DNA from: Saccharopolyspora shandongensis
GTDB lineage: Bacteria > Actinomycetota > Actinomycetes > Mycobacteriales > Pseudonocardiaceae
DNA length: 64,000 nucleotides
Direction: 5' to 3'
Assembly: GCF_900106995.1 (NCBI RefSeq)
Contig: NZ_FNOK01000013.1
Location: 1-64,000 of the forward strand
A program made the translations under genes and the position numbers. How positions within the stretch are numbered: the first letter of the stretch is position 1; the number at the start of each line of letters is the position of its first letter. Under the pieces are notes generated by a model that was not told where the DNA came from, did not search any database, and saw only the letters and a list, made by a program, of their open reading frames with translations. Below, piece after piece: positions 811 to 19,800 of the stretch.

Positions 811-1941
811 TCAGCGGTAGAGGTCGCGGGCGATGATGGTGCGTTGGACTTCCGAGGCTCCTTCGTAGATTCGGGGTGCTCGGACCTCTCGGTAGAGGTG
901 TTCCAGCAGGTGTCCTTTGTGGAGCGCTCGGGCTCCGTGGATCTGGACCGCCGCGTCCACCACGTACTGGGCCGTCTCCGTGGCGAAGAGCTTCGCCATC
1001 GCCGAGCGCCCGGCCAGGTTCTGCTCGCCCGCGTCGTAGGCCGACGCCGCCGAGTAGACCAGCAGGCGGGCCGCTTCGGTGCGGGTGGCCATCTCCGCCA
1101 GCGGGTGCGACACGGCTTGGAGGTCCTTGAGCGTTCCGCCGAAGGCGCGGCGCGCTCCGGCGTGCTCGACCGCCGCGTCCAGGGCCGCTTGCGCCATGCC
1201 CACCGCGAAGGCGCCGACGCTGGGGCGGAACAGGTCCAGGGTGCGCATCGCCACCCGGAAGCCCCGATCCTGCTCCCCCAGCAGCTCCGCGCGGTGCACC
1301 CGGACCCCGTCGAAGACCAGCCGGCCGATCGGGTGCGGGCTGATCATGTCCAGGTGCTCGCCGGAGAGCCCCGGGCGGTCGGCGGGCACCACGAACGCGC
1401 TCACACCCCTGGCACCGGCACCGGCCGTCGTGCGGGCGAACACCGCGTAGAAGTCGGCTTCCGGCGCGTTGGAGATCCAGACCTTCTCCCCGGTCAGCCG
1501 CCAGCCGTCGCCGTCCGGCTCGGCGACCAGTTCCAGCGCTGCAGCGTCGGACCCGGCCTCGGGCTCGGTGAGCGCGAACGCCGCGACCGCATCCCCGGCC
1601 GCGACAGCCGGAATCCAGCGCCGCACCTGCTCGTCCTGGCCGGACTGCAGGACCGGGTAGCTGCCCAGGCCCTGCAGCGCCAGCGCGGTCTCGGCCTCGG
1701 TGCACACTCGCGCCAGCGACTCGCGCAGCAGGCAGAGGTCCAGCGAGGCCGCCTCCCGCGATCCCGCACCGCCGGGGAAGAGCTTGGCCAGCAGGCCCTG
1801 CTCCCCCATCGCCTTGATCAGGTCCCGGTTGACCGAGCCGGGCGCGCCGGCCTCGGCCAAGGGGCGCAGCTGTTCCGCGGCGACCCGGCCCACCCGTTCG
1901 GCGAACTCGCGCTGCTGCGCGGTGAGTGCGAAGGCGCTCAT
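811..1941 (-). CDS. acyl-CoA dehydrogenase of the aromatic-CoA island
   Basis: A 376-residue FAD-dependent acyl-CoA dehydrogenase. Visible hallmarks are the FAD-binding ALTEPEAGSD and EKVWISNA stretches in the middle domain and RIYEGASEVQR near the C-terminus; the Glu of YEG is at the usual catalytic-base position of one subgroup. Its ATG overlaps the stop of the upstream two-domain monooxygenase by four bases (ATGA), so the two are translationally coupled and probably act in one pathway. It probably oxidises an alicyclic or ring-opened CoA thioester made after ring attack. The substrate is inferred from context only. Confidence 0.9.
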   Translation of the reverse strand: MSAFALTAQQREFAERVGRVAAEQLRPLAEAGAPGSVNRDLIKAMGEQGLLAKLFPGGAGSREAASLDLCLLRESLARVCTEAETALALQGLGSYPVLQSGQDEQVRRWIPAVAAGDAVAAFALTEPEAGSDAAALELVAEPDGDGWRLTGEKVWISNAPEADFYAVFARTTAGAGARGVSAFVVPADRPGLSGEHLDMISPHPIGRLVFDGVRVHRAELLGEQDRGFRVAMRTLDLFRPSVGAFAVGMAQAALDAAVEHAGARRAFGGTLKDLQAVSHPLAEMATRTEAARLLVYSAASAYDAGEQNLAGRSAMAKLFATETAQYVVDAAVQIHGARALHKGHLLEHLYREVRAPRIYEGASEVQRTIIARDLYR

Positions 1942-4307
1942 TGCATCCCTTCCGGTTCTGCGGGGTTCCAGCGCGCGTGGGCGGTGCCCCGGCCGCCGCT
2001 GCGGATCAGCTCCAGGCGGGGTTTCGGCCCGTCGGTGCGCCCGGTCTGCGGCTTGCGCCGACCGGCCCGGAACTGCTTCGGCCACGCCGCACCCGGGCCG
2101 TCGTAGTCCTGCTCGATCGCCGCATGCAAAGTCCACTGTGGATCGTAGAGATGGGTCCGGCCGACCGCGCACAGATCGGCGCGGCCCGCCAGGATCAGCG
2201 AGTTGACGTCGTCGTAGGAGGAGATGGCGCCGACCGCGATCACCGCGATGTCGTGCTCGCGCGCGACCTCGTTGCGGATCCGGTCGGCGAACGGCGTCTG
2301 GTAGCTCCGGCCGAACGCCGGGCGCTCGGCCTTGACCACCTGCCCGGTGGAGACGTCGATGCCCGCCGCGCCGTGCTCGGCGAACGCGCGCGCGACGCGC
2401 ACCGCCTCGTCGGCGTCCACCCCGCCCTCGTGCCAGTCGGTGGCCGAGATCCGCACCGTCATCGGCCGGTCGGCCGGCCACACCTCGCGGACCGCGTCGA
2501 AGACCTCCAGCGGGAACCGCAGCCTGCCCGCCAGATCGCCGCCGTAGTCGTCGGTGCGCTGGTTGGCCAGCGGGGAGATGAAGGACGACAGCAGGTAGCC
2601 GTGTGCGCAGTGCAGTTCGAGCACGTCGAACCCGGCCCGCGCGGCGGCTTGCGCGGCAGCGACGAACTGCTGCTTGATCTCGGCGAGCTCGGCCGCGGTG
2701 AGCTCGCGCGGCGTCTGGTTCGCGGGCGAGTACGGCAGCGGCGAGGGGCCGACGACCTCCCAGTTCCCCTCGTCCAGCGGGTCGTCGATGCCGTCCCACA
2801 TCAGCTTCGTCGACCCCTTGCGGCCCGAGTGCCCCAGCTGGACGCCGATCTTCGCGGCGGTGTTCCCGTGCACGAAGTCCACCACCCGCCGCCAGGCCGC
2901 CTCCTGCTCCGGGGTGCACAGGCAGGCGCAGCCCGGCGTGATCCGCCCCTGCTCGGACACGCACAACATCTCGGTCATCACCAGCCCGGCCCCGCCGAGG
3001 GCCTTGCTGCCGAGGTGCACGAGGTGGAAGTCGTCCGGCACGCCATCGACCGCGCTGTACATGTCCATCGGCGAAACGACGACGCGGTTGGGCAGCTCCA
3101 GCGGGCCGAGCCGCACCGGCTGGAACATCGGCGGCCGGACCTCGCCCGCGCCGGCGAACCAGGAGTCGATCCCGGCCACGAACTCCGGGTCGCGCAGCCG
3201 CAGGTTGTCGTAGGTGACGCGGCGGCTGCGGGTCAGCAGGTTGAAGGCGAACTGCTCGGGATCCTGGTGCACGTACTGGCCGATGTTCTCGAACCACTCC
3301 AGGCTGGCCTGCGCCGCTCGCTGCGTGGAGGTCACCACCGCACGCCGCTCCGCTTCGTACGCCTCCAAGGCTTCCTCGACCGAGGGCCGCTCCTGCAGGC
3401 AGGCCACCAGCGCCAGCGCATCCTCCATGGCCAGCTTCGTGCCGGAGCCGATGGAGAAGTGCGCGGTGTGCGCGGCATCGCCGAGGAGCACGACGTTGCC
3501 GCGCCGCCACGAGTCGCAGCGCACGGTCCGGAAGTTCAGCCACTTCGAGTTGTTGGCGAAGACCTCGTGGCCGGCCAGGGTGTCGGCGAACAGCTCCCGG
3601 ATCAGCTCGATGGACTTCTCGTCGCTGTCGCCGGGCCTGGTCGAAGCCGAGGCGGCGAAGTCGGCGAATCCGGCGCGCCGCCAGACGTCCTCGTGCATCT
3701 CGACGATGAAGGTGCTGGCGTCGCGGCTGTAGGGGTAGCCGTGCAGCTGCATGATGCCGTGCGGCGTGTCCTGGATGACGAACTTGAACGCGTCGAAGAC
3801 CAGGTCGGTGCCCAGCCAGATGTACTTGCAGCGCCCGGTTTCCACGCCGGGCCGGAAGGCCTCCGGGTATCGCGCGCGCACCGCCGAGTTCGCGCCGTCG
3901 GCCGCGACCACCAGGTCGTAGTCGGCGGACAGCCGCTCGACGTCCGGCGCCTCGGCCTGGAAGTGCAGCGCCACGTCCAGTTCGCGGCACCGGTCCTGCA
4001 GGATGCGCAGCAGCCGCTTGCGGCTCATCGCGGCGAAGCCGTGGCCGCCGGAGGTGGCCGAGGCGCCCCGGTGGTGCACGTCGATGTCGTCCCACCTGGC
4101 GAATTCCCGTTGCATGGCGCGGAAGATCCCGGCGTCGGCGTGCTCGATGCCGCCGAGGGTCTCGTCGGAGAACACCACGCCGAATCCGAAGGTGTCGTCC
4201 GGCGCGTTGCGCTCCCACACCGCGATCTCGTGCTCCGGGCCGAGCTGCCGCAGCAGCGCGGAGAAGTACAGACCGCCTGGACCGCCACCGATGACCGCGA
4301 TGCGCAC
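1938..4307 (-). CDS. anthraniloyl-/salicylyl-CoA monooxygenase-reductase (fused flavoprotein)
   Basis: A 789-residue fusion. Residues 1 to ~365 are a PHBH-like flavin monooxygenase with the dinucleotide motif VIGGGPGGLY at the extreme N-terminus and LLGDAAHTAHFSIGSG further on. Residues ~390-765 are an old-yellow-enzyme-type reductase barrel (PNRVVVSPMDMYS, GVQLGHSGRKGS). This order is that of 2-aminobenzoyl-CoA monooxygenase/reductase of Azoarcus and of SdgC-type salicylyl-CoA 5-hydroxylases; both attack an aromatic CoA thioester. Coupling to an acyl-CoA dehydrogenase, and a RidA and SDR divergently beside it, favours the anthraniloyl-CoA route. No CoA ligase is present in the window. Confidence 0.85.
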   Translation of the reverse strand: MRIAVIGGGPGGLYFSALLRQLGPEHEIAVWERNAPDDTFGFGVVFSDETLGGIEHADAGIFRAMQREFARWDDIDVHHRGASATSGGHGFAAMSRKRLLRILQDRCRELDVALHFQAEAPDVERLSADYDLVVAADGANSAVRARYPEAFRPGVETGRCKYIWLGTDLVFDAFKFVIQDTPHGIMQLHGYPYSRDASTFIVEMHEDVWRRAGFADFAASASTRPGDSDEKSIELIRELFADTLAGHEVFANNSKWLNFRTVRCDSWRRGNVVLLGDAAHTAHFSIGSGTKLAMEDALALVACLQERPSVEEALEAYEAERRAVVTSTQRAAQASLEWFENIGQYVHQDPEQFAFNLLTRSRRVTYDNLRLRDPEFVAGIDSWFAGAGEVRPPMFQPVRLGPLELPNRVVVSPMDMYSAVDGVPDDFHLVHLGSKALGGAGLVMTEMLCVSEQGRITPGCACLCTPEQEAAWRRVVDFVHGNTAAKIGVQLGHSGRKGSTKLMWDGIDDPLDEGNWEVVGPSPLPYSPANQTPRELTAAELAEIKQQFVAAAQAAARAGFDVLELHCAHGYLLSSFISPLANQRTDDYGGDLAGRLRFPLEVFDAVREVWPADRPMTVRISATDWHEGGVDADEAVRVARAFAEHGAAGIDVSTGQVVKAERPAFGRSYQTPFADRIRNEVAREHDIAVIAVGAISSYDDVNSLILAGRADLCAVGRTHLYDPQWTLHAAIEQDYDGPGAAWPKQFRAGRRKPQTGRTDGPKPRLELIRSGGRGTAHARWNPAEPEGMQ

Positions 4308-4390
4308 CGCGGGCTCCTTCCGTCGGTTCCGCTCCCGGCAGCGTATGCCGCATTGCGCACGACCGTCAATTTTACGTAATATCGCTTCCC
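4308..4390. promoter_or_regulatory. divergent promoter region of the aromatic-CoA island
   Basis: An 83-bp spacer between the leftward monooxygenase-dehydrogenase pair and the rightward SDR-RidA pair. It is locally AT-rich at its right end and contains the 8-bp palindrome TTACGTAA at 4372-4379, a candidate operator. The PaaX-type regulator downstream is the nearest candidate to bind here (inference). Confidence 0.5.
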
Positions 4391-5146
4391 GTGACGACGA
4401 GAAACTGCCTGGTCACCGGAGCCGGTAGGGGCATCGGTCGCGCCATCGCCCAGCGACTTTCCGAGTCCGGCAACCGCGTCGCGCTCACCGCGCGAAGCGC
4501 CGGGGAGCTCGCCGAGGCCGCCACACAGCTACCCGGGCCGGCGCTCGACCTGCCCGCCGACCTCGCCGACCCACAGGCCCCGAACCGGGTTTTCGACGCG
4601 GTCGAACGCGACTGGGGGCCGGTCGAGGTCTTGGTGCTCAACGCGGGCACCGCGACCTCGGCGCCGCTGACCGCGACGACCGATGAGGACTGGGAACGCG
4701 CGCTGCAGATCAACCTGACCGCGCCGTTCCGCTTCCTGCGCCGCGCGGTTCCGCCGATGGTCGAACGCGGCTTCGGCCGGATCGTGGTGATCGCGTCGAT
4801 GGCCGCCAAGCGCGGCGACCCCTACGTCAGCGCCTACACCGCCAGCAAGCACGGCGTGCTCGGGCTGGTGCGCTCGGCCGCCGCGGAGCTGGCCAGGACG
4901 GGTGTCACGGTCAACGCCGTGTGCCCCGGCTTCGTCGACACGCCGATGACCGAACGCACCATCGACAACATCACCGCCAAGACCGGGCGGAGCGCGCAAC
5001 AGGCCCGCAGCGCGTTGGAGGGCAAGCAACCCATCGGCCGGCTGATCAGCCCGGACGAGGTCGCCGACGTCGTGGAGCTGTGCGTGCGCAACGCCGCGAT
5101 CAACGGGCAAGGGATCACTGTGGACGGAGGAGCGGTGCAATCATGA
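4391..5146 (+). CDS. short-chain dehydrogenase/reductase (3-hydroxyacyl-CoA dehydrogenase-like)
   Basis: A 251-residue classical SDR. The N-terminal cofactor motif is TGAGRGIG, followed by NAG in strand 4, the catalytic Ser in the IVVIASMAA region and YTASK for the Tyr/Lys pair. The C-terminus ends in the VDGGA motif typical of FabG-like enzymes. The GTG start is 84 bp from the divergent monooxygenase, and its stop overlaps the ATG of the RidA gene (ATGA). In this setting it could oxidise a hydroxyacyl-CoA intermediate formed after ring cleavage; the substrate is not visible from sequence. Confidence 0.9.
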   Translation: MTTRNCLVTGAGRGIGRAIAQRLSESGNRVALTARSAGELAEAATQLPGPALDLPADLADPQAPNRVFDAVERDWGPVEVLVLNAGTATSAPLTATTDEDWERALQINLTAPFRFLRRAVPPMVERGFGRIVVIASMAAKRGDPYVSAYTASKHGVLGLVRSAAAELARTGVTVNAVCPGFVDTPMTERTIDNITAKTGRSAQQARSALEGKQPIGRLISPDEVADVVELCVRNAAINGQGITVDGGAVQS

Positions 5147-5562
5147 CCATCGAACGGATCAACCCCGCGGAACTGGCCCGCCCGGCGGGTTTCTCCCACG
5201 CCGTGGTGGCCTCGGACTGCCGCCTGGTGTTCCTGGCCGGGCAGACCGCGCTCGACGCCGACGGCAAGATCGCCGGGGACGGCGTCGTCGCGCAGTTCCG
5301 GCAGGCGCTGGGCAACCTGCTCACCGCGCTGCGCGCCGCCGGGGGCAGCCCCGAGCAGGTGACCGAGCTGACCGTCTACATCGTGGACGTGGACGACTAC
5401 CGCGCGCACGCCCGGGAAATCGGCGCGGTGTGGCGCGAACTCGCCGGACGGGACTACCCGGCGATGGCCGGGATCGGCGTGCAGCGCCTCTGGGACGCCG
5501 AGGCGCTGGTCGAGATCAAGGGCACCGCCGCGATCCCCGCCGAAGCGGTCAGCGCGCCGTGA
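5143..5562 (+). CDS. RidA-family enamine/imine deaminase
   Basis: 139 residues, the normal RidA (YjgF/YER057c) length. VFLAGQTALDADGKI near the N-terminus and the C-terminal ALVEIKGTAAIP are family signatures. A typical RidA has a substrate-carboxylate-binding Arg late in the protein (often CxxR or IEIxA); that Arg is not obvious here, so the substrate may differ. GGAGG at 5126-5130 precedes the ATG, which overlaps the SDR stop. The product of anthraniloyl-CoA monooxygenase/reductase is a cyclic enamine, so a RidA that removes the amino group would fit this pathway well (inference). Confidence 0.85.
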   Translation: MTIERINPAELARPAGFSHAVVASDCRLVFLAGQTALDADGKIAGDGVVAQFRQALGNLLTALRAAGGSPEQVTELTVYIVDVDDYRAHAREIGAVWRELAGRDYPAMAGIGVQRLWDAEALVEIKGTAAIPAEAVSAP

Positions 5563-6424
5563 CGGCGTCGACGTGGTCGTGGGCCTGCCGCTCCAGCAGG
5601 GCCTTCAGCTCGAAGAACACCTCCGCGGCCACCGCCCCGTTCCAGTCCTTCGGCAGCAGCTCGGCGGGCAGCCCGGGGTCCAGGTAAGGCAAGCGGCGCC
5701 AGTCGGTGAGCACGCGCACGTAGTCGGCGAAGGCCTCCGGCCCGCGCGGCGACCGGCGGCGCCGCCACCGCCGCAGCACCGGCTGGTGCACCCCGATGAA
5801 CTCGCCGTAGAGCTCCTGCAGCTGCTCCAAGTCCCACCACTGGGCAACCTTGGTCCGCAGATCGCCGAAGGCGAGGTGCTCGGCGTGGAACAGATCCGCG
5901 TAACCGGCCAGCTCGTAGCGCTGCAGGACGCTGCTCGCCGCTTCGCGCAGGTCGGCCGGGGCGATCCACACCCCCGGCGCGGCGGTGCCGAAGCCCAGGC
6001 GCGTCAGTTGGGTGCGCAGCACGTGCCGCTTCTGCCGTTCGGACTCCGGGACCGAGAACACCGCCAGCACCCACCCATCGGTGAGGGTGGCGCGCTCGCG
6101 GCGGAAGATCCGCTCGTCGCCTTCGCGCAGGATCTCCAGCGCGGCACCGGACAGCTCGTAGCCCGCCGCCCCGCCGCGCCGCTCGGCCAGCAGGATGCCG
6201 CGCCGCTTCAGCCGCGAGATCGACGAGCGCACCGCGGGCTCGTCGACGCCGAGATCGGCGAGCAGCCGCACCAACGACGCCACCGACAGCCAGCCACCGG
6301 CCTCCCGCGCGTACAGGCCGTAGAGGGTGACGATCAGCTGCCTGGGCTGCATGCCGCGGCCGGTCATCTCGCTCACCACGGCATCGCCCACCGATGCGCC
6401 ATCCGTCACGATGTCCGTCGTCAC
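5549..6424 (-). CDS. PaaX-family transcriptional regulator
   Basis: A 291-residue protein with the PaaX layout: an N-terminal winged helix (PRQLIVTLYGLYAR... VRSSISRLKRRGIL), a central region with GWVLAVFSVPE, and a C-terminal PaaX_C domain. PaaX proteins are repressors of phenylacetyl-CoA and related aromatic-CoA pathways, often released by the CoA thioester. The chosen GTG sits in the palindrome TCACGTGA (6421-6428) and has no clear ribosome site; a shorter start at an internal ATG (MTGRGMQ) is possible. The 3' end overlaps the RidA gene tail-to-tail by 14 bp. Confidence 0.85.
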   Translation of the reverse strand: MTTDIVTDGASVGDAVVSEMTGRGMQPRQLIVTLYGLYAREAGGWLSVASLVRLLADLGVDEPAVRSSISRLKRRGILLAERRGGAAGYELSGAALEILREGDERIFRRERATLTDGWVLAVFSVPESERQKRHVLRTQLTRLGFGTAAPGVWIAPADLREAASSVLQRYELAGYADLFHAEHLAFGDLRTKVAQWWDLEQLQELYGEFIGVHQPVLRRWRRRRSPRGPEAFADYVRVLTDWRRLPYLDPGLPAELLPKDWNGAVAAEVFFELKALLERQAHDHVDAVTAR

Positions 6425-6584
6425 GTGAACACGATAACAGCGGTCGCGCGGGCCGACTCGATCCACAGTGCCGCACCCGAATTCCCCGCCGTACCGGACG
6501 AAATCCCGGCGCATTGGCAACGCCCCGGGCGCGAAGTAGGATCCCGCACGTCGTCGAAGTTCCCGGAATCCGGAGGCGAAGAAC
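6421..6584. promoter_or_regulatory. divergent spacer between paaX-like gene and cyclase operon
   Basis: A 160-bp region that must hold the promoters of the leftward regulator and of the rightward cyclase-decarboxylase pair. TCACGTGA (6421-6428) is a perfect palindrome overlapping the regulator start, a natural place for autoregulation. The ribosome site CGGAGG for the cyclase lies at 6571-6576. No clear -10/-35 pair was picked out. Confidence 0.4.
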
Positions 6585-7361
6585 GTGGCCGTCCTCGACG
6601 AACTGCTGCGGGCGCTGACGTCCGGCCGGATCAGCGTCATCGACCTGACCGCGCCCCTGACGTCCGACGTGCCCGTCCTGCGGCTACCGGAGCCGTTCGC
6701 CAACACCATCGGCTTCAGCCTGGAGGAGATCAGCCGGTTCGACGACCGCGGTCCCGCCTGGTACTGGAACAACATCCACACCGGGGAGCACACCGGCACC
6801 CACTTCGACGCGCCGGTGCACTGGATCACCGGCCGCGACGGCCTCGACGTCGCCTCGGTCCCGCCCCGGCAGATGATCGGCCCGGCCGCGGTGCTGGACT
6901 GCTCCGCGCAAGTCGCCGACGACCCGGACTTCCTGCTGGAGACCGAGCACATCCGCGAGTGGGAATCCGCGCACGGCCCCCTGCCCGAGGGCGGCTGGTT
7001 GCTGATGCGGACCGGCTGGGACGCGCGCAGCGGCGATCAGGCGGAGTTCCTCAACGCCGACGACAGCGGCTCGCACACCCCGGGGATCTCGCCGGACTGC
7101 GCCCGCTGGCTGGCCGAGGAGAGCGCCCTGATCGGCATCGGCGTGGAGACGGTGGGCACCGACGCCGGGCTGGCGCCCACCTTCGAACCGGCCTTCCCTT
7201 GCCACTCGTTGCTGCTCGGCGCCGGCAAGTACGGACTCACCCAGCTGCAGAACCTCGCGCTGCTGCCACCCACCGGAGTGGTACTGATCGCCGCGCCGCT
7301 GCCGATCGTCAACGGCTCCGGCAGCCCGACGCGGGTCCTGGCGCTGATCGAGCAGGACTGA
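6585..7361 (+). CDS. cyclase-family metal hydrolase (isatin hydrolase / kynurenine formamidase type)
   Basis: 258 residues with the diagnostic HTGTHFDAPVH motif: His69, His73 and Asp75 are the expected metal ligands and His79 the next conserved His. The family includes kynurenine formamidase (KynB) and isatin hydrolase (Mn2+, opening isatin to isatinate); both lead to anthranilate. The start is GTG with CGGAGG upstream. The gene is followed after 22 bp by a ThDP-dependent decarboxylase, the partner expected for isatinate to anthranilate, so isatin hydrolase is preferred here over kynurenine formamidase. No tryptophan dioxygenase or kynureninase is nearby. Confidence 0.8.
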   Translation: MAVLDELLRALTSGRISVIDLTAPLTSDVPVLRLPEPFANTIGFSLEEISRFDDRGPAWYWNNIHTGEHTGTHFDAPVHWITGRDGLDVASVPPRQMIGPAAVLDCSAQVADDPDFLLETEHIREWESAHGPLPEGGWLLMRTGWDARSGDQAEFLNADDSGSHTPGISPDCARWLAEESALIGIGVETVGTDAGLAPTFEPAFPCHSLLLGAGKYGLTQLQNLALLPPTGVVLIAAPLPIVNGSGSPTRVLALIEQD

Positions 7362-7383
7362 CCCACCGGTAGGAGGGAACGCG

Positions 7384-9027
7384 ATGAACGTCGCCGAGGT
7401 CGTCGGCCGCACGGTGGCCGCGCTGGGTGCCGACCACGTCTTCGGCGTCGTCGGCAGCGGCAACTTCCACGTCACCAACGCGCTGGTCGCCGCGGGTGCG
7501 CGGTTCGTGGCCGCCCGCCACGAGGGCGGCGCGGCGACGATGGCCGACGCATATGCGCGCACCAGTGGCCGCCTCGGGGTGCTCTCGGTGCACCAGGGCT
7601 GCGGGCTGACCAATGCGCTCACCGGCATCACCGAAGCGGCCAAGAGCCGGACCCCGCTGCTCGTGCTCGCCGCGGAAACGGCCTCCGCCGCCATCCGCTC
7701 GAACTTCCGGATCGACCAGGATGCGCTGGCCACCGCCGTCGGCGCCCGCGCGGAGCGGGTGCACGGCGCGGCCACCGCCGTCGACGACGTGGTGCGGGCG
7801 TTCCGGCTGGCCACCGAGTGCAGGCGGACCGTGGTGCTGAACCTGCCGCTGGACGTCCAGGCGGCGGAGTTCGACGGCGAGCCGCACGTCCCGCAGCCCC
7901 CGGCGCTGAACCCGGTCGCGCCGTCCGCCGCCGCGGTGCGGGAGCTGGCCGACCGGCTGGTCGCCGCGCAACGCCCGGTCTTCATCGCCGGTCGCGGTGC
8001 CCGGCACGCCGGCCCCGAGCTGCGGGCGCTGGCCGAGGACTGCGGGGCGCTGCTGGCCACCTCGGCGGTGGCGCGGGGCCTGTTCCACGACGACCCGTGG
8101 TCGCTGGACGTCTCCGGCGGTTTCGCCACGCCGCTGACCGCCGAGCTGATCTCCGGTGCGGACCTCATCGTCGGTTGGGGCACCGCGCTGAACATGTGGA
8201 CCACGCGGCACGGCAACCTGATCGGCCCCGGGTCCGCGCTGGTGCAGGTCGACGTCGAGAGCGAGGCGATCGGCGCGCACCGCCCGGTCGACCTCGGGGT
8301 GCTCGGCGACGTCGCCGCGACCGCCGAGGCGGCCCGGGCCGAACTCACCGACCGCGGCACCCGGCTCGCCGGTTACCGCGATCCCGGGGTGCGGGAACGG
8401 ATCGCGAGCGCCGGTTCCTGGCGCGACGTGGCATTCGCCGACGAGTCCACACCGGACGCCATCGACCCGCGCGCGCTGACCATCGCCCTGGACGCGCTGC
8501 TGCCCGAAGAGCGGGTGCTGGCGGTGGATTCCGGCAACTTCATGGGCTACCCGAGCATGTTCCTGCGGGTCCCCGACGAGCAGGGCTTCTGCTTCACCCA
8601 GGCCTTCCAGTCCATCGGCCTCGGCCTGGCCACCGCCATCGGCGCCGCGCTGGCCCGCCCGGACCGGCTGCCGGTCGCCGCGCTCGGCGACGGCGGCGCG
8701 CTGATGGGCATCGCCGAACTCGAAACGGCGGCCCGGCTGGGACTGCCGATGGTGATCGTGGTCTACAACGACCACGCCTACGGCGCGGAAGTCCACCACT
8801 TCGGCCCGGACGGCCACCGGTTGGACACCGTCGAGTTCCCGGACACCGACCTCGCCGCCGCCGCGCGCGGCTTCGGCTGCACCGGGCTCACGGTGCGCTC
8901 CGAAGCCGACCTCGCGCCGGTGCGCGACTGGCTGAACGGACCGCGTGCCACGCCGCTGCTGATCGACGCCAAGATCGCCCCGGGCGAAGGCGCCTGGTGG
9001 CTCGTCGAAGCATTCCGCGGCCACTGA
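7384..9027 (+). CDS. thiamine-diphosphate-dependent decarboxylase/lyase
   Basis: 547 residues with the acetolactate synthase/pyruvate decarboxylase fold. The N-terminal PYR domain carries the cofactor-activating Glu47 in RHEGGAA. A central domain of the sulfolactate/benzoylformate decarboxylase type follows, then the PP domain with GDGGALM ... VVYND for Mg-ThDP binding near residue 436. It starts with ATG behind AGGAGG and is co-transcribed with the cyclase. The substrate cannot be read off. By context it is a candidate isatinate (2-aminophenylglyoxylate) decarboxylase, chemically equivalent to benzoylformate decarboxylation. Confidence 0.85.
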   Translation: MNVAEVVGRTVAALGADHVFGVVGSGNFHVTNALVAAGARFVAARHEGGAATMADAYARTSGRLGVLSVHQGCGLTNALTGITEAAKSRTPLLVLAAETASAAIRSNFRIDQDALATAVGARAERVHGAATAVDDVVRAFRLATECRRTVVLNLPLDVQAAEFDGEPHVPQPPALNPVAPSAAAVRELADRLVAAQRPVFIAGRGARHAGPELRALAEDCGALLATSAVARGLFHDDPWSLDVSGGFATPLTAELISGADLIVGWGTALNMWTTRHGNLIGPGSALVQVDVESEAIGAHRPVDLGVLGDVAATAEAARAELTDRGTRLAGYRDPGVRERIASAGSWRDVAFADESTPDAIDPRALTIALDALLPEERVLAVDSGNFMGYPSMFLRVPDEQGFCFTQAFQSIGLGLATAIGAALARPDRLPVAALGDGGALMGIAELETAARLGLPMVIVVYNDHAYGAEVHHFGPDGHRLDTVEFPDTDLAAAARGFGCTGLTVRSEADLAPVRDWLNGPRATPLLIDAKIAPGEGAWWLVEAFRGH

Positions 9028-9344: not shown

Positions 9345-10454
9345 TCACGCCCCGGGATCCCGCGGTCGGACCTGGACGGTCCGATGCCCGCATCCATCGC
9401 TCTGGTGGATGCGAGGCGGTGCCGTCCGTCGCCGGATCGGGTATCTGTGCTTCGGATCGACAAGCACCACCAGTCGGCCGTGCTTGCGCCCCATCATGAT
9501 CAGTTCGTTTTTCGTGGCCGAGATCGCAGCATCAGCCGCTTTCTTGGCCATCGCGGTCTTCGCGAGAAATTTCGGGCGGAAGTCCTCCACCGCGATCGCA
9601 TCGTGGTCGGTCACCACGCGCATGGCCCATTTACGGGCCGTGTCCTGACGCTGGCGGGCGACCTTCGCGTGCGCTTTCGCGGCCTGGCGTTTGGCTTTGC
9701 GATATCCCTGTGAAGCGGGCTTTCCCTTCGCCGGCCGACGCCGGGCCATCATCCGCTGGTAGCGGGCCAGCTTCACCGCCGCGCGCTTGCCGTGCTCGAC
9801 ATGCGGAAGATCGTGGGCAACGGATGTGGTCGTAGCGATCTCGGCCACACCCCAGTCGACGCCGATCACCTGACCGGTTTCCGGCAACGACTGCACCTCG
9901 GTCGCGACCACGAACGAGCAATACCAGTGCCCCTGGGCGTCCTGGTACACACGCACCGACGACGGTGCGGAGGGAAGCTCGCGGGACCACACCACCGTGC
10001 ACACGATGCCACCCGCCAGGTGCAGGCGACCGTCCTTGATCCGGAACCCGCGCAGCGTGTAGTTCAAGCTCGGACGCGCCAGCTCCTTTTTCTTGAACTG
10101 CGGCATCCCCACCCGCTGCCGGATCGGCAACCGGGCCTTGACGTCCTTCAACGCCTTGGCGCGGGACTTGGCAAAGTCACGAATGATCTGCTGCTGCGGA
10201 ACCGAACCGCCAGCACTCAGCCAGTCGTGTTCCCTCCGCCATCCAGTCAGCAGCTTGTCCAGGTGCGCGGGACCGCATTCCTCGCCCGCACGGTGCGCCT
10301 GACGGGAGGTGGCCACGCACTGGTTCCATAACCACCGGCACCGATCCCACTCGGCCAGCAGCGCACGCCGGGAGGTCGGCGATAAGCGAAGTCGATAGGC
10401 GTACCGAGCGTGCCCGGCCTCCTCGGTCTTCGCTGCCACTGCCATGTGGATCAT
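9345..10454 (-). pseudogene. tnpB: tnpB (IS605 OrfB) with its zinc ribbon deleted
   Basis: 369 residues. The N-terminal region (YAYRLRLS, RCRWLWNQCV) and RuvC segments are recognisable: the first catalytic Asp in VIGVDWGV and the Glu in IAVEDFRPK. After VDPKH the usual TTMTC..CG....C..CG..RDxN zinc ribbon, with the third catalytic Asp, is missing; the frame instead runs through a short unrelated tail and stops. Another frame (9209-9463) continues to a plausible native C-terminus ending LMLSL. So a deletion with frame change has removed about 45 codons, and the RNA-guided nuclease is presumably dead. The start could be ATG 10454 or 10445. Confidence 0.75.
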
Positions 10455-10469
10455 CACAGCATTTGATTT

Positions 10470-10889
10470 ATGACTACCGACGGCGAATTCCGTACAGGCA
10501 GACACGTAGTTTTCCTCATGCATGCTCACTTGGTTTTCGTCACGAAGTACCGGCACCTCGCCTTCACCAACACACACCTGACCCGCATGGAAGAAATCAT
10601 GCGGGAGGTGTGCGGCGACTTCGAAACCAAACTCGAGGGGTTCAACGGCGAAGCCAACCACGTGCATCTGCTCGTCAGCTTCCCACCCAAGGTCGCGGTG
10701 TCGAAACTGGTCAACTCCCTCGATGGAGTATCCTCCCGGTTGTTGCGCAAGGAGTGCGAAGACCTGCGGTTCGCTTACTGGAAAGGTGCCCGGTTGTGGT
10801 CGGGCTCGTACTTCGCCGGGTCGGTCAGTGGCACACCGATTTCCGTGGTGCGCCAGTACATCGAACAGCAAGCCCGCCCCGCAGTTTGA
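10470..10889 (+). CDS. tnpA: IS200-type Y1 transposase TnpA
   Basis: 139 residues, normal length. The HUH metal-binding motif is visible as NHVHLL and the catalytic tyrosine as the Tyr of VVRQYIEQQ near the C-terminus; FVTKYRH is the usual first strand. The enzyme cuts and rejoins single-stranded IS ends at subterminal hairpins. Nothing in the sequence suggests inactivation, so the element may still move, or mobilise related copies, even though its tnpB is damaged. Confidence 0.92.
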   Translation: MTTDGEFRTGRHVVFLMHAHLVFVTKYRHLAFTNTHLTRMEEIMREVCGDFETKLEGFNGEANHVHLLVSFPPKVAVSKLVNSLDGVSSRLLRKECEDLRFAYWKGARLWSGSYFAGSVSGTPISVVRQYIEQQARPAV

Positions 10890-10964
10890 CCGGTCGACTC
10901 AAACACAGAGTCGATTTCCTTCCCCCCGCCGTAAAGAACGGGGCATCCGCGCTACGTTTCTTCC

Positions 10965-11540
10965 GTGACGGTCTTCGGCGCGGCGGGAATCCCGTTCGCC
11001 GCGCTGGTGATGAACTTCGTGGTGCTGACCGCGGCGCTCTCCAGCGCGAACACGAACCTCTACCTGTGCACCAGGATGCTGCACTCCCTCGCCGGGCACG
11101 GCTACGCGCCGCGCTGGACCGCCAAGTTGAGCAAGGGCGGCGTGCCGCGCAACGCGCTGCTGCTCAGCGCGGCCGGGCTGCTCGTCGCCACCGCGCTGTC
11201 GGCCGCGCAGGGCAACGCCGCGTACCTGGTGCTGTTCGGGTTGTCCATCTTCGGCGCCCTGGCGGTGTGGATCCTCATCCTCGTCACGCACCTGGCGTTC
11301 CGGCGAACCCGCGCCGCTGCGGGCCTACCGCTGCCGAAGGTCCGCCTGCGCGGCGCACCGGTCACTGCGATCGCAGCGATCCTGTTCCTGGCGGCGGTCC
11401 TGGTGTCCACGGCGTTCATCGACGACCTGGCGGTCGCCTGGTGGGCGGGCGTGCCGTTCTTCATCGTGCTGAGCGCGATCTACTTCGCGGTCGGCCGGAA
11501 GTCACGCAGAGGGTCATCCGCGCACCCGGAGCGCAGATGA
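10965..11540 (+). pseudogene. APC-family amino-acid permease, C-terminal half only
   Basis: About 190 residues that match the last five or so membrane segments of an amino-acid/polyamine permease: a helix with SSANTNLYLCTRMLHSLA (typical of TM8 of APC permeases), then RNALLLS..., two long hydrophobic helices and a short basic tail. The first half, including the substrate-binding TM1 and TM6, is absent and the IS605 end lies immediately upstream. The insertion, or a rearrangement at it, truncated the gene. No start with a ribosome site is present. Confidence 0.8.
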
Positions 11541-11601
11541 GTCCCGCGCCGGATGCCTTTACACTGAAGGTGCAGGCAAGTTCTTCTCGTGAGGAGCGGT
11601 C

Positions 11602-12534
11602 ATTCCAACCGACGGTTCCACCACGCGAGCAGCCCTGGTGGTCAATGCACGGGCCCGCACGGGCGCCAAGGCATACGTGCGGGCGGTCGAGAACCTGCGC
11701 AGCCTGGGCATGCCCCTGCACTCGACCTTTCCGCTGCACGATCCGGCCCGGCTCCCGGAAACCGTGAACTCGGCCGTGGACGCGGGCCACGATCTGATCA
11801 TCCTCGGTGGCGGTGACGGCAGCGTCAGCTCGGTGGTCGACGTGCTCGCACACCGCGGAGTGCCGTTGGGCCTGCTGCCGCTGGGCACCGCCAACGACTT
11901 CGCACGCACCCTGCACATTCCCACGGACCTCGACCACGCGTGCCGCACCATCGCACACGGCAAAGTGGTCGACATCGACCTCGGCCTCTGCGGAAACAAC
12001 TACTACGTCAACCGCGCATCGGTCGGTCTCGGCGCGGGCGTGGCCGAGGCGATGTCGCCGACGCTGAAGAGATGGACCGGCGTACTGGCATACCCGGTGG
12101 CTACTGTCAAGGCACTGCTGCGACACCGACCGTTCTCGGCGCATCTGACGTTCCCCGACGGAGACCACGAGCCGCAGGAACACCACGGATTGCTGCAACT
12201 CTCGATCGCCAACGGCCGCTACTTCGGCGGCGGGCAGCTCGCGGCGCACGACGCCGGGATCGACGACGCGACGCTGGACATATCCGTCATGCGGCACGGC
12301 AGCCTCCACGACCTGATCGTCGCCGCGCGTGATCTCAAACGCGGTGCGCTCGACAGCGAGCACGTCCGTCACTTCCGCACCAAGCGGGTCGACGTGTCGA
12401 CCGGACCCGACCTCCCGATCAACGTCGATGGTGAACTCGTCGATAGCACGCCGCAACGCTTCTCGGTCGCGCGCAACGCTCTCCACGTCGTCGTTCCTCG
12501 AACCTGGAAGGACGCCAGCAACCCGGACTTCTAG
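11602..12534 (+). CDS. diacylglycerol/lipid kinase (YegS/DAGK family), possible ATT start
   Basis: A DAGK-catalytic-domain protein. The nucleotide-binding loop LGGGDGSVSS and LPLGTANDFAR are visible, followed by the C-terminal lipid-kinase domain ending in DGELVD and a short tail. It phosphorylates a lipid such as diacylglycerol. The only good ribosome site, GAGGAG at 11591-11596, is followed by an in-frame ATT at 11602 (310 residues). The first normal start, GTG 11638, has no ribosome site and would cut into the first strand (AALVVNARA). Conventional annotation would use 11638. Confidence 0.85.
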   Translation: MPTDGSTTRAALVVNARARTGAKAYVRAVENLRSLGMPLHSTFPLHDPARLPETVNSAVDAGHDLIILGGGDGSVSSVVDVLAHRGVPLGLLPLGTANDFARTLHIPTDLDHACRTIAHGKVVDIDLGLCGNNYYVNRASVGLGAGVAEAMSPTLKRWTGVLAYPVATVKALLRHRPFSAHLTFPDGDHEPQEHHGLLQLSIANGRYFGGGQLAAHDAGIDDATLDISVMRHGSLHDLIVAARDLKRGALDSEHVRHFRTKRVDVSTGPDLPINVDGELVDSTPQRFSVARNALHVVVPRTWKDASNPDF

Positions 12535-15526: not shown

Positions 15527-16867
15527 TCAGCGCGGCAGCGGCGGCAACTCGGTGCTGTCCAGCCAGCTCGTGAATAACCCGGCGAGCGACCGGTCCGCGA
15601 ATTCGTCGGCCAGCGCCCTGAAGTCCGCCGTGGTCGCCGTGCCGTGCCGGTGGTCGGCGACCCACTTACGCAGCAGCTCGAAGAACGGCTCGTCGCCCAG
15701 TTCGCGGCGCAGCGCGTGCAGCGTCAGCGCGCCGCGCTTGTAGACCTGTTCGTCGAACATCCTGGCCACGCCCGGATCGGCGATCCGGAGATCCGGCGGA
15801 CCTGCGGCGATGTGCGCGTGCCAGTTCGCCGCGTGCTGCTGGGCCGACGGGCCGCCCGAGTACTCCGACCACAACCATTCGGCGTAGGTGGCGAAACCCT
15901 CGTTGAGCCAGATGTGCCGCCAGTCCGCGATCGTGACGCTGTTGCCGAACCACTGGTGCGCCAGCTCGTGCACGACGAGCCGCTCGTTCGTGCGCCGGCC
16001 GTCCAGGTGGCCCGCGCCGAAGATCGACATGCCCTGCGCCTCGACCGGTTCGTCCAGGTCGTCGTCGGTGACCACGACGACGTACTCGCCGAACGGGTAA
16101 GGGCCGAACAGCCGCTGCAGCACGTCCATGATCTGGCCGTGCCGCGCGAAATCCGCGGCGAAGAGCTCGCCCAGCCGCGCGGGGATCGCCGCCCGCTGCG
16201 GCGCCGGCCCACCGGCCAGCTCCACGTCGGTGTACTGGCCGACCTGGATGCTCATCAGGTACGTCGCGGTAGGTTCCGGCCGCTCGTAGACCCAGGTCGT
16301 GGTGCTGCCGCGGCGTTGCCGCGACACCATGTTCCCGGTCACCTGCACCGAGTACGGCGAGGCCGTGGTGAACGAGATCCGGTAGGCCGCCTTGTCCGCG
16401 AGGTGATCGTTGCAGGGAAACCACGACGGCGCGCCGACCGGCTGGGCGGCGACCAGGGAGCCATCGGTCAGCTCGTCCCAGCCGATCTCGCCCCACCGGC
16501 CGGAAATCGGCCGCGGATTGCCCGAATACCGGACGTCCACCCGGAATTCCGCCGCCGCGGCGACGGGACGCGCCGGTTTGATCCGGAGCTTCCCGCCGCC
16601 GTGCGTGAACTTGGCGGGCCGGCCGTCCACGAGCACCCGGCGAACCCGCAGGTCGGCGAGGTCCAGGCTGAACCGCGACAGGGCCTGCGTCGCCACCGCC
16701 GAGATCGTCGCCTGCCCGGCGAGCCGGTTCGGGCCGACCTGGTACTCCAGGTCCAGGTCGTAGTGCTCGACGCGATAGCCGCCGTTGCCGTGCTCGGGCA
16801 GGTAGGAATCCGTCGACCGATCCGCTCCCGGTGCCGCCGCACCCGACTGGTCAGCACCAGGCTTCAC
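15527..16867 (-). CDS. M1-family zinc metallopeptidase (aminopeptidase N-like)
   Basis: 446 residues. The zinc site is HELAHQW with the third ligand in NEGFA downstream, the M1 signature. The exopeptidase motif normally read GxMEN is EAQGM here, as in the short actinobacterial M1 branch. There is no signal peptide, and the length is about half that of full aminopeptidase N (the C-terminal ARM domain is missing). The start GTG 16867 overlaps the stop of the upstream synthetase (GTGA) and has GGGAGGA eight bases before it, so it is translationally coupled. It probably trims or degrades the synthetase product (inference). Longer starts upstream are less likely. Confidence 0.88.
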   Translation of the reverse strand: MKPGADQSGAAAPGADRSTDSYLPEHGNGGYRVEHYDLDLEYQVGPNRLAGQATISAVATQALSRFSLDLADLRVRRVLVDGRPAKFTHGGGKLRIKPARPVAAAAEFRVDVRYSGNPRPISGRWGEIGWDELTDGSLVAAQPVGAPSWFPCNDHLADKAAYRISFTTASPYSVQVTGNMVSRQRRGSTTTWVYERPEPTATYLMSIQVGQYTDVELAGGPAPQRAAIPARLGELFAADFARHGQIMDVLQRLFGPYPFGEYVVVVTDDDLDEPVEAQGMSIFGAGHLDGRRTNERLVVHELAHQWFGNSVTIADWRHIWLNEGFATYAEWLWSEYSGGPSAQQHAANWHAHIAAGPPDLRIADPGVARMFDEQVYKRGALTLHALRRELGDEPFFELLRKWVADHRHGTATTADFRALADEFADRSLAGLFTSWLDSTELPPLPR

Positions 16868-19800
16868 CGGCGACGTCCTCCCGCTTTCCGCCACGTCGAG
16901 ATCGGGTTGCCGAGCCACCGCGAGTGCGCGGGCACCTCGTCTCCCCGGGTCACCAGCGACCCGGGGCCGATGGTGGTGTGCGCGCCGATGCTCGCACCGG
17001 GCAGCACGATTCCGTGCGGGCCCAGCGTAGCGCCGGCGTCCAGGCGCACCTCGTCCAACCGCATGACCCGATCATGGAAGAGGTGGGTCTGCACCACGCA
17101 ACCGCGGTTGACCGATGCGCCGTCGCCGAGCCGCACCAGGTCCGACTCGGGCAGCCAGTAGGTCTCCAGCCACACCCCGCGGCCGATCTTCGCGCCCATG
17201 CTGCGCTGCCACGCCGTCAGCAGCGGCGTCCCGCCGACCGAGCCGATCAGCCACGGGACGGCCAGCACCTCCACGAACATGTCCGCGAGCTCGGTCCGCC
17301 ACACGAAGGAGCTCCACAGCGGGCGTTCGTCCGCCCGGTAGCGCCCGACCAGCAGCCACTTCACGGCGGTCGTGACGGCGCACGCCAGCAGGCCCGCGGC
17401 GAGCAATACCGGCCCGGCCAGCAACGCCGCCAGCCACAGCCCGCCTTCGGCGTGCAGGAACGCCAGCGCCCCCAGCACCAGCACCGCCAGCGCCACGCTG
17501 AGAGCCACCGGCACGAACCGGAACAGCTCGACCACCGCGCGGGCGATCTTCAGCCGCAGCGGCGGGGCGAACGTCCGGCTCGCGTCGGCCTCGTCGATGG
17601 AACGGCGCAGCGGCATCGGCGGCATGCCCAGCCAGGACGAGCCCTTCTTGGCCTTGCGCGGCGTCGAGGACAGCACCCCGACCAGGCCGCGCTTGGGCAC
17701 CGAACGCCCTGCCGCGGTCATGCCCGAGTTCCCGAGGAAGGCCTGCTTGCCGATGCGGGCCGGGGCCACGTGCAGCCAGCCACCGCCGAGCTCGTAGGTG
17801 GCGACCATGGTGTCGTCGGCGAGGAAGGCGCCGTCGGCGACCTTCGTCATCTTCGGCAGCGCCAGCACGGTGGAGGCTTCCACGTCGCGACCGACCTTGG
17901 CACCGAGCAGCCGCAGCCACACCGGCGTGAACAGGCTGGCGTACAACGGGAACAGGCCGATGCGGGCCATGTCCATCAGGCGTTCGGTCGCCCACACCTG
18001 CCACGCCATGCGGCCGTGCACCGGGTGGTAGCCCTCGCGCATGCCGATGCTCAGCGCGCGCACGCTCACCAGCACCAGCACCGCGTAGGCAACGAGGTAG
18101 CACGCGCTCGCCAGGGGCACCGCCAGCAGCGCCCGGGTCAGCGCCGAGCCGAGATCGGGTGCACCACCGAGCGCGAGGCCGAGCACCACGACGCCAGGCA
18201 GTGCCGCCAGCGCCGGCAGCAGCCCGAGCAGCACCGAGGTGATCCCGTAGACCGAGGCCCACACCTGCGAGCGGGGCGGCCGGCTCGACGGCCAGGTGCG
18301 GCCCGCTTCGCGCACCGGGACGGCCGGTGAGCCGGCCCACCGCTGCTCCGCCGGCACCGAGCCGCGCACCGTGGAGCCGGCCGCGATCTCCGCGGACTTG
18401 CCGATCCGGGCGCCGGGGATCAGCGTGCTGCGCGCGCCGACGCGCGCACCGGCCCCAATCCGGAGCTTGCCGATGTGCACCTCGTCGCCGTCGACCCAGT
18501 GACCGGCGAGGTCGACCTCGGGTTCGACGGCCGCGCCCTTGCCGATCTTGAGCATGCCGGTGACCGGCGGCGGCGAGTGCAGGTCGACGTCCTTGGCGAC
18601 CTTGGCGCCCAGCGCCCGCGCGTAGTGGGTCATCCAGGAGGCGCCGGACACGCCCGCCGCGCCGCTGAACTCGGCGAGCCGCTCGGCGGTCCACAGTCTC
18701 AAGTGGACATTTCCGCCGCGCGGGTAGGTGCCCGGGCGAACCCCGGCGAGCAGCAGTCGCGCGCCACCGGCCGACAACGCGATCCGGCCCGCGGGGCTGA
18801 ACAGGACCAGCCACGCCGCGGCGATCCACCACCACGACACCGTCGGCGCGAACGACGCGGATCCGGTCCACGCCAGCACGTTGGTCAGCGCCGCCAGCAC
18901 CGTAGTCCAGCGCAGCCCGACGATGGCCAGCAGCGGCAGCATGATCAGGGCCTGCCACAGCCCGGTCAGCCGCGGCGTCGGCCGGACGACGCGCCGTGAG
19001 GTCTCGGTCATCGCCTCCAGCGCGTCGAGGTGCGCGGCCAGCGCACCGAGCGTCGGGTGCTGGTAGATGTCGGCGACCGACACCTGGGCGTGGCGCATCC
19101 GGATGCGCGCGATCAGCTGGGCGGCGGTGAGGCTGCCGCCGCCGGTCGCGAAGAAGTCCGCGGCGGGGTCGGTCACCTCCACGCCGAGGATCTCCGCCCA
19201 GCCCTCCGCGAGCCACGCCTCGGTCGACGACATCGCCGACCTCGCGGCCGGATCGCCGCCGGCGGTGGGCAGCGGCCACGGCAGCGCGGCCCGATCCACC
19301 TTCCCGGAGGTGCGAGTCGGCAGGTCGGACACGACCGCGAGCAGCGGCACCAGCGCGGCGGGCAGCTGCTCCTGCAGCCGCCGCACCGCGTGGTCGTGGT
19401 CGAACGTCGCCTCGGACTCGGCACGGGGCACCACGTAGCCGACGAGGATCTGGTTCCCGGCGGCGGTGGTCTGCACGGCGGAGGCCGCCCCGGCAACGCC
19501 GGGCAGGGCCTGCAGCACCGCGTCCACCTCACCGAGTTCGATGCGGCGGCCACCGAGCTTGATCTGTTCGTCGGCCCGACCGACGAACAGCAGCCCTTCG
19601 GGCTCGGCCCGCACCACGTCACCGCTGCGGTAGGCCCGCGACCAGCCGAGCGACGGCAGCGGCGCGAACTTCTCGGCGTCCTTGCCCGCGTCCAGGTACC
19701 GGGCGAGGCCGACGCCACCGATGATCAGCTCGCCGGTGTCGCCCATCGCGACCGGCTCGCCGCGCTCGTCGACGACCGCGAGTTGCCAGCCCGCCAACGG

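Follow-up and report, generated by a model that had tools for sequence, protein, structure and literature searches.

A candidate isatin entry branch in a probable anthranilate degradation cluster of Saccharopolyspora shandongensis, built on a hydrolase and thiamine diphosphate enzyme pair common in Actinomycetota

The first 64,000 nucleotides (forward strand) of contig NZ_FNOK01000013.1 from the Saccharopolyspora shandongensis assembly GCF_900106995.1, referred to here as the window (bases 1-64000 of contig C56), carry at positions 811-9027 a compact gene cluster that probably serves to burn anthranilate and to admit isatin through an entry branch in which a thiamine diphosphate (ThDP)-dependent enzyme decarboxylates isatinate. 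We base this reading on gene content, synteny, family placement, gene pairing and co-occurrence, from which we infer substrates, reaction steps and repression. The CoA-dependent half of the cluster is of a known kind; the new part would be a PF04199 hydrolase and the adjacent ThDP enzyme, acting as the step from isatin to anthranilate or its aldehyde. A first-pass annotation had proposed an isatin-to-anthraniloyl-CoA island here, and that proposal stands as to enzyme families, the pairing and the presence of an anthraniloyl-CoA monooxygenase/reductase (ACMR)-family protein, but its decarboxylation chemistry and its claim of a new organization need correction, and the hydrolase lacks one published isatin hydrolase signature. 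All seven of the genes that it named are present and correctly named in outline according to open reading frame (ORF) calling, which supplied the gene starts, and to Pfam and NF/TIGR profiles (Table 1). The seven ORFs are not chance frames, since the best Pfam E-values per protein are strong, from 1.5e-20 (RidA) to 9.5e-63 (the OYE domain of the ACMR protein), and relatives of all seven stand together in a locus of the same genus (L047).

In the proposed scheme, a PaaX-family regulator would repress the cluster, and the hydrolase, of the Mn type, would open isatin to isatinate (2-aminobenzoylformate), an aryl 2-oxoacid from which the ThDP enzyme would take CO2. Anthranilate had been named as the product of this decarboxylation, which does not balance: loss of CO2 leads to 2-aminobenzaldehyde, and anthranilate needs an added oxygen and a two-electron oxidation. 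The Breslow intermediate could either be protonated to 2-aminobenzaldehyde, to be oxidized elsewhere to anthranilate, or be oxidized on the ThDP enzyme to give anthranilate. A ligase encoded on a second contig, C88, would convert anthranilate to anthraniloyl-CoA, and ACMR would turn this into 2-amino-5-oxocyclohex-1-enecarbonyl-CoA, the reported product of the ACMR family (PMC3534580). RidA would then remove the amino group of the ACMR product. Ring opening and degradation would fall to a short-chain dehydrogenase/reductase (SDR), an acyl-CoA dehydrogenase (ACAD) and an enoyl-CoA hydratase, the SDR probably dehydrogenating the ring or the ring-opened CoA ester and the ACAD acting after ACMR in a beta-oxidation-like step.

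The hydrolase, annotated as a cyclase, had been expected to group with isatin hydrolases and not with kynurenine formamidases, and structure matches and a tree agree. PF04199 is its sole Pfam domain, and it is the only PF04199 match in the 10.15-Mb genome. Its nearest solved structures in phmmer searches are isatin hydrolases (5nmp, 5.7e-83; 5nnb, 4.4e-81; 4j0n, 6.2e-72), whereas kynurenine formamidase structures score 3.6e-6 or worse. It is 51% and 48% identical to LaIHA and LaIHB of Labrenzia aggregata and 50% identical to RsIHA of Ralstonia solanacearum, with which it shares HxGTHxDAPxH, containing the metal-binding HxGTHxD motif (HTGTHFDAPVH in the window), and the WxW form (WYW) of the WxW/FxW aromatic pocket motif as defined by Sommer et al. 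(PMC6117287). The same authors proposed a GLQC/GLAS signature for isatin hydrolases, which these three enzymes carry, whereas the window protein reads GLTQ; GLQC occurs in 1 of the 41 cyclases listed, the one from Agrobacterium. In a tree of 39 rows, proteins of the isatin hydrolase type stood apart from three formamidase-like rows (split support 100/100); the latter came from the 3 of 12 formamidase loci that were usable (L198, L206 and L208), L198 alone exceeding the TIGR03035 cutoff. The three characterized isatin hydrolases fall into one clade (100/99) that also holds Proteobacterial rows, among them one reading GLSS; under midpoint rooting this clade is nested among ThDP-linked proteins. 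Family placement and the metal and WxW motifs thus favor an isatin hydrolase, and the signature does not; because GLTQ replaces GLQC/GLAS and the characterized clade is an inner group, we label the window protein only as isatin-hydrolase-like.

Directly beyond the ligase on C88 (L090, 3876-7003) lie genes for a kynureninase (KynU; TIGR01814, 269.9 bits, cutoff 246.4), a weak amidohydrolase-family protein and a tryptophan 2,3-dioxygenase (TDO; TIGR03036, 385.7 bits, just under the cutoff of 390.7). With these two enzymes nearby, a single PF04199 match in the whole genome and a weak match to the KynB profile TIGR03035 (36.4 bits against a cutoff of 223), the hydrolase could be taken for the kynurenine formamidase of this genome, and the cluster for a tryptophan-kynurenine-anthranilate pathway. 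We regard this as improbable, and tree, profile and context led us to reject it as the main account of the hydrolase. Tree and structure matches place the protein among isatin hydrolases, GLTQ stands where KynB has its I(L/I)E motif (the GLQC position), the kynurenine route has no role for the ThDP enzyme, and at 40% identity KynU and TDO were found in 0 of the 35 regions and 0 of the 80 named loci described below. The amidohydrolase-family gene between TDO and KynU could itself encode the formamidase, a use for which there is presumably a precedent in Streptomyces. As the KynU and TDO genes follow the ligase, anthranilate from tryptophan and kynurenine probably also feeds the same route in this genome, beside the isatin branch that we favor for the hydrolase.

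The ThDP gene starts 22 bases past the hydrolase gene, and the supposed tie between the two holds across the phylum when approached from either side. A ThDP gene adjoins the hydrolase gene in 13 of 15 genomes, and a hydrolase is present in 76 of 80 named ThDP loci, within 200 bases in 73; these loci are the best 80 of 563 candidates by likeness to the query, so that the rate describes near relatives. Two of the four remaining loci are cut by contig ends (L109 and L171), and the other two (L159 and L161) show no hydrolase; in L159 (Candidatus Leucobacter sulfamidivorax, 9615-11653) the ThDP ortholog adjoins a carboxymuconolactone-decarboxylase-family gene. Among the 396 Actinomycetota genomes sampled, 27 have a ThDP ortholog of at least 54% identity, the definition of ThDP-positive used here. 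Outside the phylum, the GLQC isatin-hydrolase-type gene of Agrobacterium lies 4.3 kb from a 58% identical ThDP ortholog.

The neighbors that recur across families beyond the pair are those of the anthraniloyl-CoA set (ACMR, ligase, RidA and PaaX; 4 to 5 of the 80 loci), and most others are shared within one genus or family. ACMR neighbors the ThDP or hydrolase gene in 8 of 35 regions from the sampled genomes, which comprise 22 of the 26 other ThDP-positive genomes (G058, G184, G259 and G299, short fragments, being left out) and 13 regions from the hydrolase search. Genome-wide, ACMR (E<=1e-200) occurs in 14 of the 27 ThDP-positive genomes, the S. shandongensis genome being one of them, against 28 of the 369 others (Fisher test, 2e-8); with G363, excluded at 47% identity, the first figure becomes 14 of 28. 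The family cutoff is exceeded in 19 of these 42 ACMR-positive genomes. Full sets in one place were found in L067, L074, L076 and a Deinococcus plasmid (L095). The pair and the CoA cluster seem to move separately, since the ThDP gene of the same-genus genome G409 (L047, 276-1919) is diverged and displaced, and G413 has a pair 83-85% identical to that of the window standing without CoA genes.

The predicted active site of the ThDP enzyme fits the proposed role. All 19 of the diverse ortholog rows keep Ser25, Glu47 and His70, which align with Ser/Glu/His in four of five benzoylformate decarboxylases (the fifth has Thr/Glu/His), for which we take the numbering to be Ser26, Glu47 and His70 with a second His at 281. 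Among the other ThDP enzymes of the same genome, His was found at the place of His70 in 0 of 7 and Ser at that of Ser25 in 0 of the 6 having a residue there; these are the 7 aligned of 15 matches, six others not being extractable, one being the window's own protein and one, the fragment L224, being aligned but not counted. Because isatinate is 2-aminobenzoylformate, a Ser/Glu/His site suits the proposed substrate. The window enzyme differs from benzoylformate decarboxylases in that it is only 23-26% identical to them, scores 145 bits on NF005485 against a cutoff of 493 and leaves the second His unmatched. A structure model (pLDDT 87.2, with poor stretches such as 467-477) is matched by Foldseek about equally to pyruvate oxidase, HKA synthase, acetolactate synthase and hydroxyacyl-CoA lyase folds, and the benzaldehyde lyase type is also among the nearest solved structures. 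PoxB is the best Foldseek match, which might suggest FAD binding, yet non-flavin enzymes tie with it. No benzoylformate decarboxylase structure is among the 50 matches listed for the model, an absence that is uninformative.

Such distant matches, the poor parts of the model and the low identity to benzoylformate decarboxylases would also suit another 2-oxoacid enzyme or a carboligase, with the hydrolase linked to it through some other couple of substrates, such as a substituted isatin or a breakdown product of an indole alkaloid; GLTQ in place of GLQC may likewise mean a shifted hydrolase substrate. We think this unlikely in view of the co-occurrence with ACMR, the one-locus clusters with anthraniloyl-CoA genes and the Agrobacterium locus, where a GLQC protein accompanies the ThDP ortholog. 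From the pairing, the active-site residues and the plasmid distribution given below, the ThDP enzyme of the window is the leading candidate to use isatinate as substrate. A bolder proposal, which we offer tentatively and with considerable doubt, is that it represents a new enzyme, an isatinate decarboxylase that is oxidative by itself (flavin- or oxygen-assisted) and yields anthranilate directly without free aldehyde. With the GLTQ hydrolase it would then form a two-gene module by which isatin derived from indole or auxin becomes anthranilate, either to make tryptophan or to be degraded by the CoA-dependent route, and which takes the place of the IadAB-type oxidoreductase of Proteobacteria.

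That oxidoreductase belongs to the iad loci of Variovorax and Bradyrhizobium, which take indole-3-acetate through isatin and isatinic acid to anthranilic acid, the last part being the route proposed for the window cluster; IadA and IadB, which bear the annotation of IOR subunits, serve to mark these loci (PMC9613470). The iad amidase IadI is annotated as a kynurenine formamidase (PMC9613470, PMC12633357), and we infer that it is a PF04199 protein. The accessible descriptions of the iad locus name MarR control, a Rieske oxygenase and IadA/IadB and no ThDP decarboxylase, whereas the window has PaaX and the ThDP enzyme. The likely intermediates that follow IadI in Variovorax were given as C7H7NO and C8H7NO3 (PMC12633357); the first formula would fit 2-aminobenzaldehyde and the second isatinate, an assignment by formula, the word aminobenzaldehyde being absent from the accessible text. 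An isatin-hydrolase-type gene (E<=1e-60) is present on 57 plasmids; an IadA-type gene (IOR alpha) accompanies it on 40, the ThDP gene on 5, neither on 12 and both on none, in a count that omits ThDP homologs below 46% identity, takes the best place per record only and includes many near-copies (19 from Sulfitobacter). In 39 of the 40 the hydrolase and IOR genes are separated by 10 bases to 25 kb; the remaining record has them 182 kb apart when counted along its length, or ~24 kb if it is circular. Two different thiamine-type 2-oxoacid enzymes thus follow the same type of hydrolase, a pattern to be expected if isatinate is the substrate of both, and the IadA-type oxidoreductase is likely the stand-in in Proteobacteria for the ThDP enzyme. 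On a Tsukamurella plasmid (L092, 12735-18674), the isatin-hydrolase-type gene lies inside an ACMR cluster, flanked by a carbon-nitrogen hydrolase gene and, following it, a two-subunit IOR-type 2-oxoacid oxidoreductase. A search with the IOR alpha protein of this plasmid at 1e-120 matched 0 of the 396 Actinomycetota genomes, that of S. shandongensis included, and is uninformative for want of a positive control.

The flavoprotein of the CoA half had been called an anthraniloyl/salicylyl-CoA enzyme. Its family is clear, as it combines FAD monooxygenase and OYE domains and exceeds the cutoff of NF006101, a model named salicylyl-CoA 5-hydroxylase/oxidoreductase to which the Azoarcus ACMR presumably also belongs; the choice of anthraniloyl-CoA over salicylyl-CoA comes from context alone, namely RidA and a ligase homolog in the genome resembling that of plasmid pAL1 from Arthrobacter sp. 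Rue61a. Compared with their pAL1 counterparts, the window and C88 proteins are 66% (ACMR), 63% (ligase), 58% (RidA) and 49% (PaaX, against both pAL1 copies) identical. Anthranilate-CoA ligase activity was shown for a pAL1 ligase gene (PMC3534580), which we match to the 63% homolog by its place before ACMR. The plasmid differs in that its upper pathway is that of quinaldine, that the annotation shows neither a hydrolase nor a ThDP enzyme in the vicinity, and that FAA hydrolase, cupin and thioesterase genes stand where the window cluster has ACAD, SDR and enoyl-CoA hydratase. The anthranilate-CoA cluster of Azoarcus evansii is, we assume, likewise comparable.

RidA accompanies ACMR within 22 kb of pAL1, as would be expected from the suggested fit of RidA to ACMR chemistry, and no cyclase is annotated in that stretch. 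The latter bears on a further possibility, that the window hydrolase is a C-C hydrolase acting once RidA has deaminated the ACMR product, whose ring it would open. Its attraction is that this product requires ring opening and that dihydrophloroglucinol cyclohydrolase, a relative of isatin hydrolase, performs a retro-Claisen C-C ring opening (PMC10470551). That enzyme, however, is only 25% identical to isatin hydrolase (PMC10470551), against ~50% and a WxW motif for the window protein; the hydrolase-ThDP pairing is also seen in loci and genomes without ACMR, and a crotonase (NF006107, 398.8 bits, cutoff 330) is available for the step. We consider a C-C hydrolase highly improbable and keep it only as a rival to the isatin hydrolase reading.

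The cluster had been thought to represent a new organization, but it has relatives. In G409 (L047) the genes run as ligase, enoyl-CoA hydratase, ACAD, ACMR, SDR, RidA, PaaX and hydrolase, which is the order of the window apart from the ThDP gene. Other lineages also have full sets that include a MarR-type gene, as does the plasmid of Deinococcus psychrotolerans (L095), where ACMR, SDR, enoyl-CoA hydratase, ACAD, an AMP-binding ligase, hydrolase, ThDP and RidA genes form one run, unlike the window in its MarR-family regulator, single direction and phylum. The combination of ACMR, ligase, RidA and PaaX is already known from Arthrobacter Rue61a.

A CoA ligase is missing from the window, as had been remarked, but not from the genome. 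The window starts at the first base of its contig, so that no contig sequence lies to its left; when the G409 ligase was used as a query against the genome, an 88% identical match appeared at C88:2235-3860. C88 opens with coding sequence for the N-terminal portion of an IS630 transposase (NF033545 positions 2-76), followed by a RibD_C fragment, enoyl-CoA hydratase and the ligase, and the window starts within a C-terminal part of such an element. By DNA similarity the window end covers L047 14861-15945 and C88 covers 16292-17364, so that the two contig ends flank a single 346-base interval there. The genome has this IS630 element at five sites, four of which coincide with the first base of a contig; the element is the probable cause of an assembly break that split the ligase and enoyl-CoA hydratase from the cluster.

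Genes that might supply isatin vary among relatives. Elsewhere the hydrolase keeps company with Rieske-type oxygenase, ligase, thiolase and SDR genes, and also with a styrene/indole-monooxygenase-type gene and an FAD oxidoreductase; its partner in the window is the ThDP enzyme, whereas for Alphaproteobacterial relatives the partners are dioxygenase, ligase, thiolase and SDR, often with an IadA-type gene. An FAD amine-oxidase-like subfamily, c11, a candidate isatin-forming oxidase, was observed in several isatin-hydrolase-type regions (L064, 11098-12711; L169, 7540-9156; L052; L056; L092, 18746-20350; L194, 7353-8933), some of which contain FMO or styrene/indole-monooxygenase-type genes, the latter in L194. 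On a Rhodococcus erythropolis R138 plasmid (L091, 11492-16018), thiolase with a ChsH2-type zinc ribbon, acyl-CoA ligase and aldehyde dehydrogenase genes lie downstream of the pair and look like a retro-aldol side-chain route from an indole acid to isatin. Aldehyde dehydrogenase genes also occur near the hydrolase in Sulfitobacter and Shinella. As a fixed third partner this enzyme was rejected, since nothing recurrent emerged when neighbors of the 80 named loci were clustered, with annotation for part of the clusters and a single query that would miss other subfamilies.

Several observations weigh against an isatin branch running through the ThDP enzyme. The hydrolase lacks the GLQC/GLAS signature. 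No isatin-forming gene was identified near the window cluster, and the genome has only a 35% match to c11. The R138 aldehyde dehydrogenase, used as a query, was found in 0 of 115 loci. Pairing has its exceptions: the ThDP gene of G409 lies 7.5 kb away in inverted orientation and is 60% identical, compared with 78-91% for the rest of the cluster; G400 has a hydrolase without a ThDP gene within 20 kb; IOR alpha occurs without the hydrolase on 10 plasmids and a 46-48% ThDP homolog without it on three. ACMR at E<=1e-200 is absent from 13 of the 27 ThDP-positive genomes, only 8 of the 14 positives exceed the family cutoff, and the Fisher value ignores relatedness. The likely contiguity of C56 and C88 is read from synteny. 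Finally, nine Variovorax genes, iadC-K2, restored anthranilic acid formation in a locus-deletion strain (PMC12633357, a 2025 preprint), so that another enzyme can do the step in that organism.

Table 1. Features at the start of the window
Feature	Position	Strand	Evidence
C-terminal part of IS630-family transposase element, cut by contig end	1..356	+	DDE_3; NF033545 positions 213-298
Acyl-CoA dehydrogenase (ACAD)	811..1941	-	Pfam Acyl-CoA_dh_1/M/N; 91% identical gene in L047
ACMR-family two-domain protein (FAD monooxygenase/OYE)	1938..4307	-	NF006101 1232 bits, cutoff 1078; 66% to pAL1 protein
SDR dehydrogenase	4391..5146	+	adh_short; at >=45% identity in 6/35 other regions
RidA-family enamine/imine deaminase	5143..5562	+	Ribonuc_L-PSP (scan from 5161); found with ACMR clusters such as those of pAL1 and Tsukamurella
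PaaX-family regulator	5549..6391	-	Three PaaX Pfam domains; TIGR02277 164 bits, cutoff 264.6; divergent from hydrolase-ThDP pair
Isatin-hydrolase-like PF04199 hydrolase (cyclase), GLTQ subtype	6585..7361	+	HTGTHFDAP; phmmer, tree
ThDP-dependent 2-oxoacid enzyme, candidate isatinate decarboxylase	7384..9027	+	Three TPP_enzyme domains; pairing; Ser25/Glu47/His70

With all three family domains but a score under the TIGR02277 equivalog cutoff, the regulator is, by its sequence, a PaaX-family protein and not the phenylacetate equivalog. A comparison of three intergenic stretches for common 12-mers and palindromes gave no convincing motif for a shared PaaX operator. Directly beyond the ThDP gene, at 9345-10889, lies an IS200/IS605-type pair (OrfB_IS605 and Y1_Tnp), followed at 10965-11540 by the C-terminal piece only of an amino acid permease, as if the insertion had cut the permease.

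Isatin is an intermediate in the breakdown of indole and auxin. According to the 2025 preprint (PMC12633357), genes for the single Variovorax steps had previously gone unidentified, and its accessible text assigns no gene to the conversion of C8H7NO3 into anthranilic acid; no isatinate decarboxylase gene is named in the literature that we searched, most subscription papers being outside that search. The hydrolase-ThDP pair is widespread, common in Actinomycetota and also present on Deinococcus plasmids, and it may contain a so far unnamed isatinate-decarboxylating enzyme. We thus propose one protein family for the isatinate step in Actinomycetota, together with a likely replacement enzyme in Proteobacteria. 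If this is true, isatin handling would become predictable in many actinobacteria, including those whose pairs stand without nearby anthraniloyl-CoA genes.

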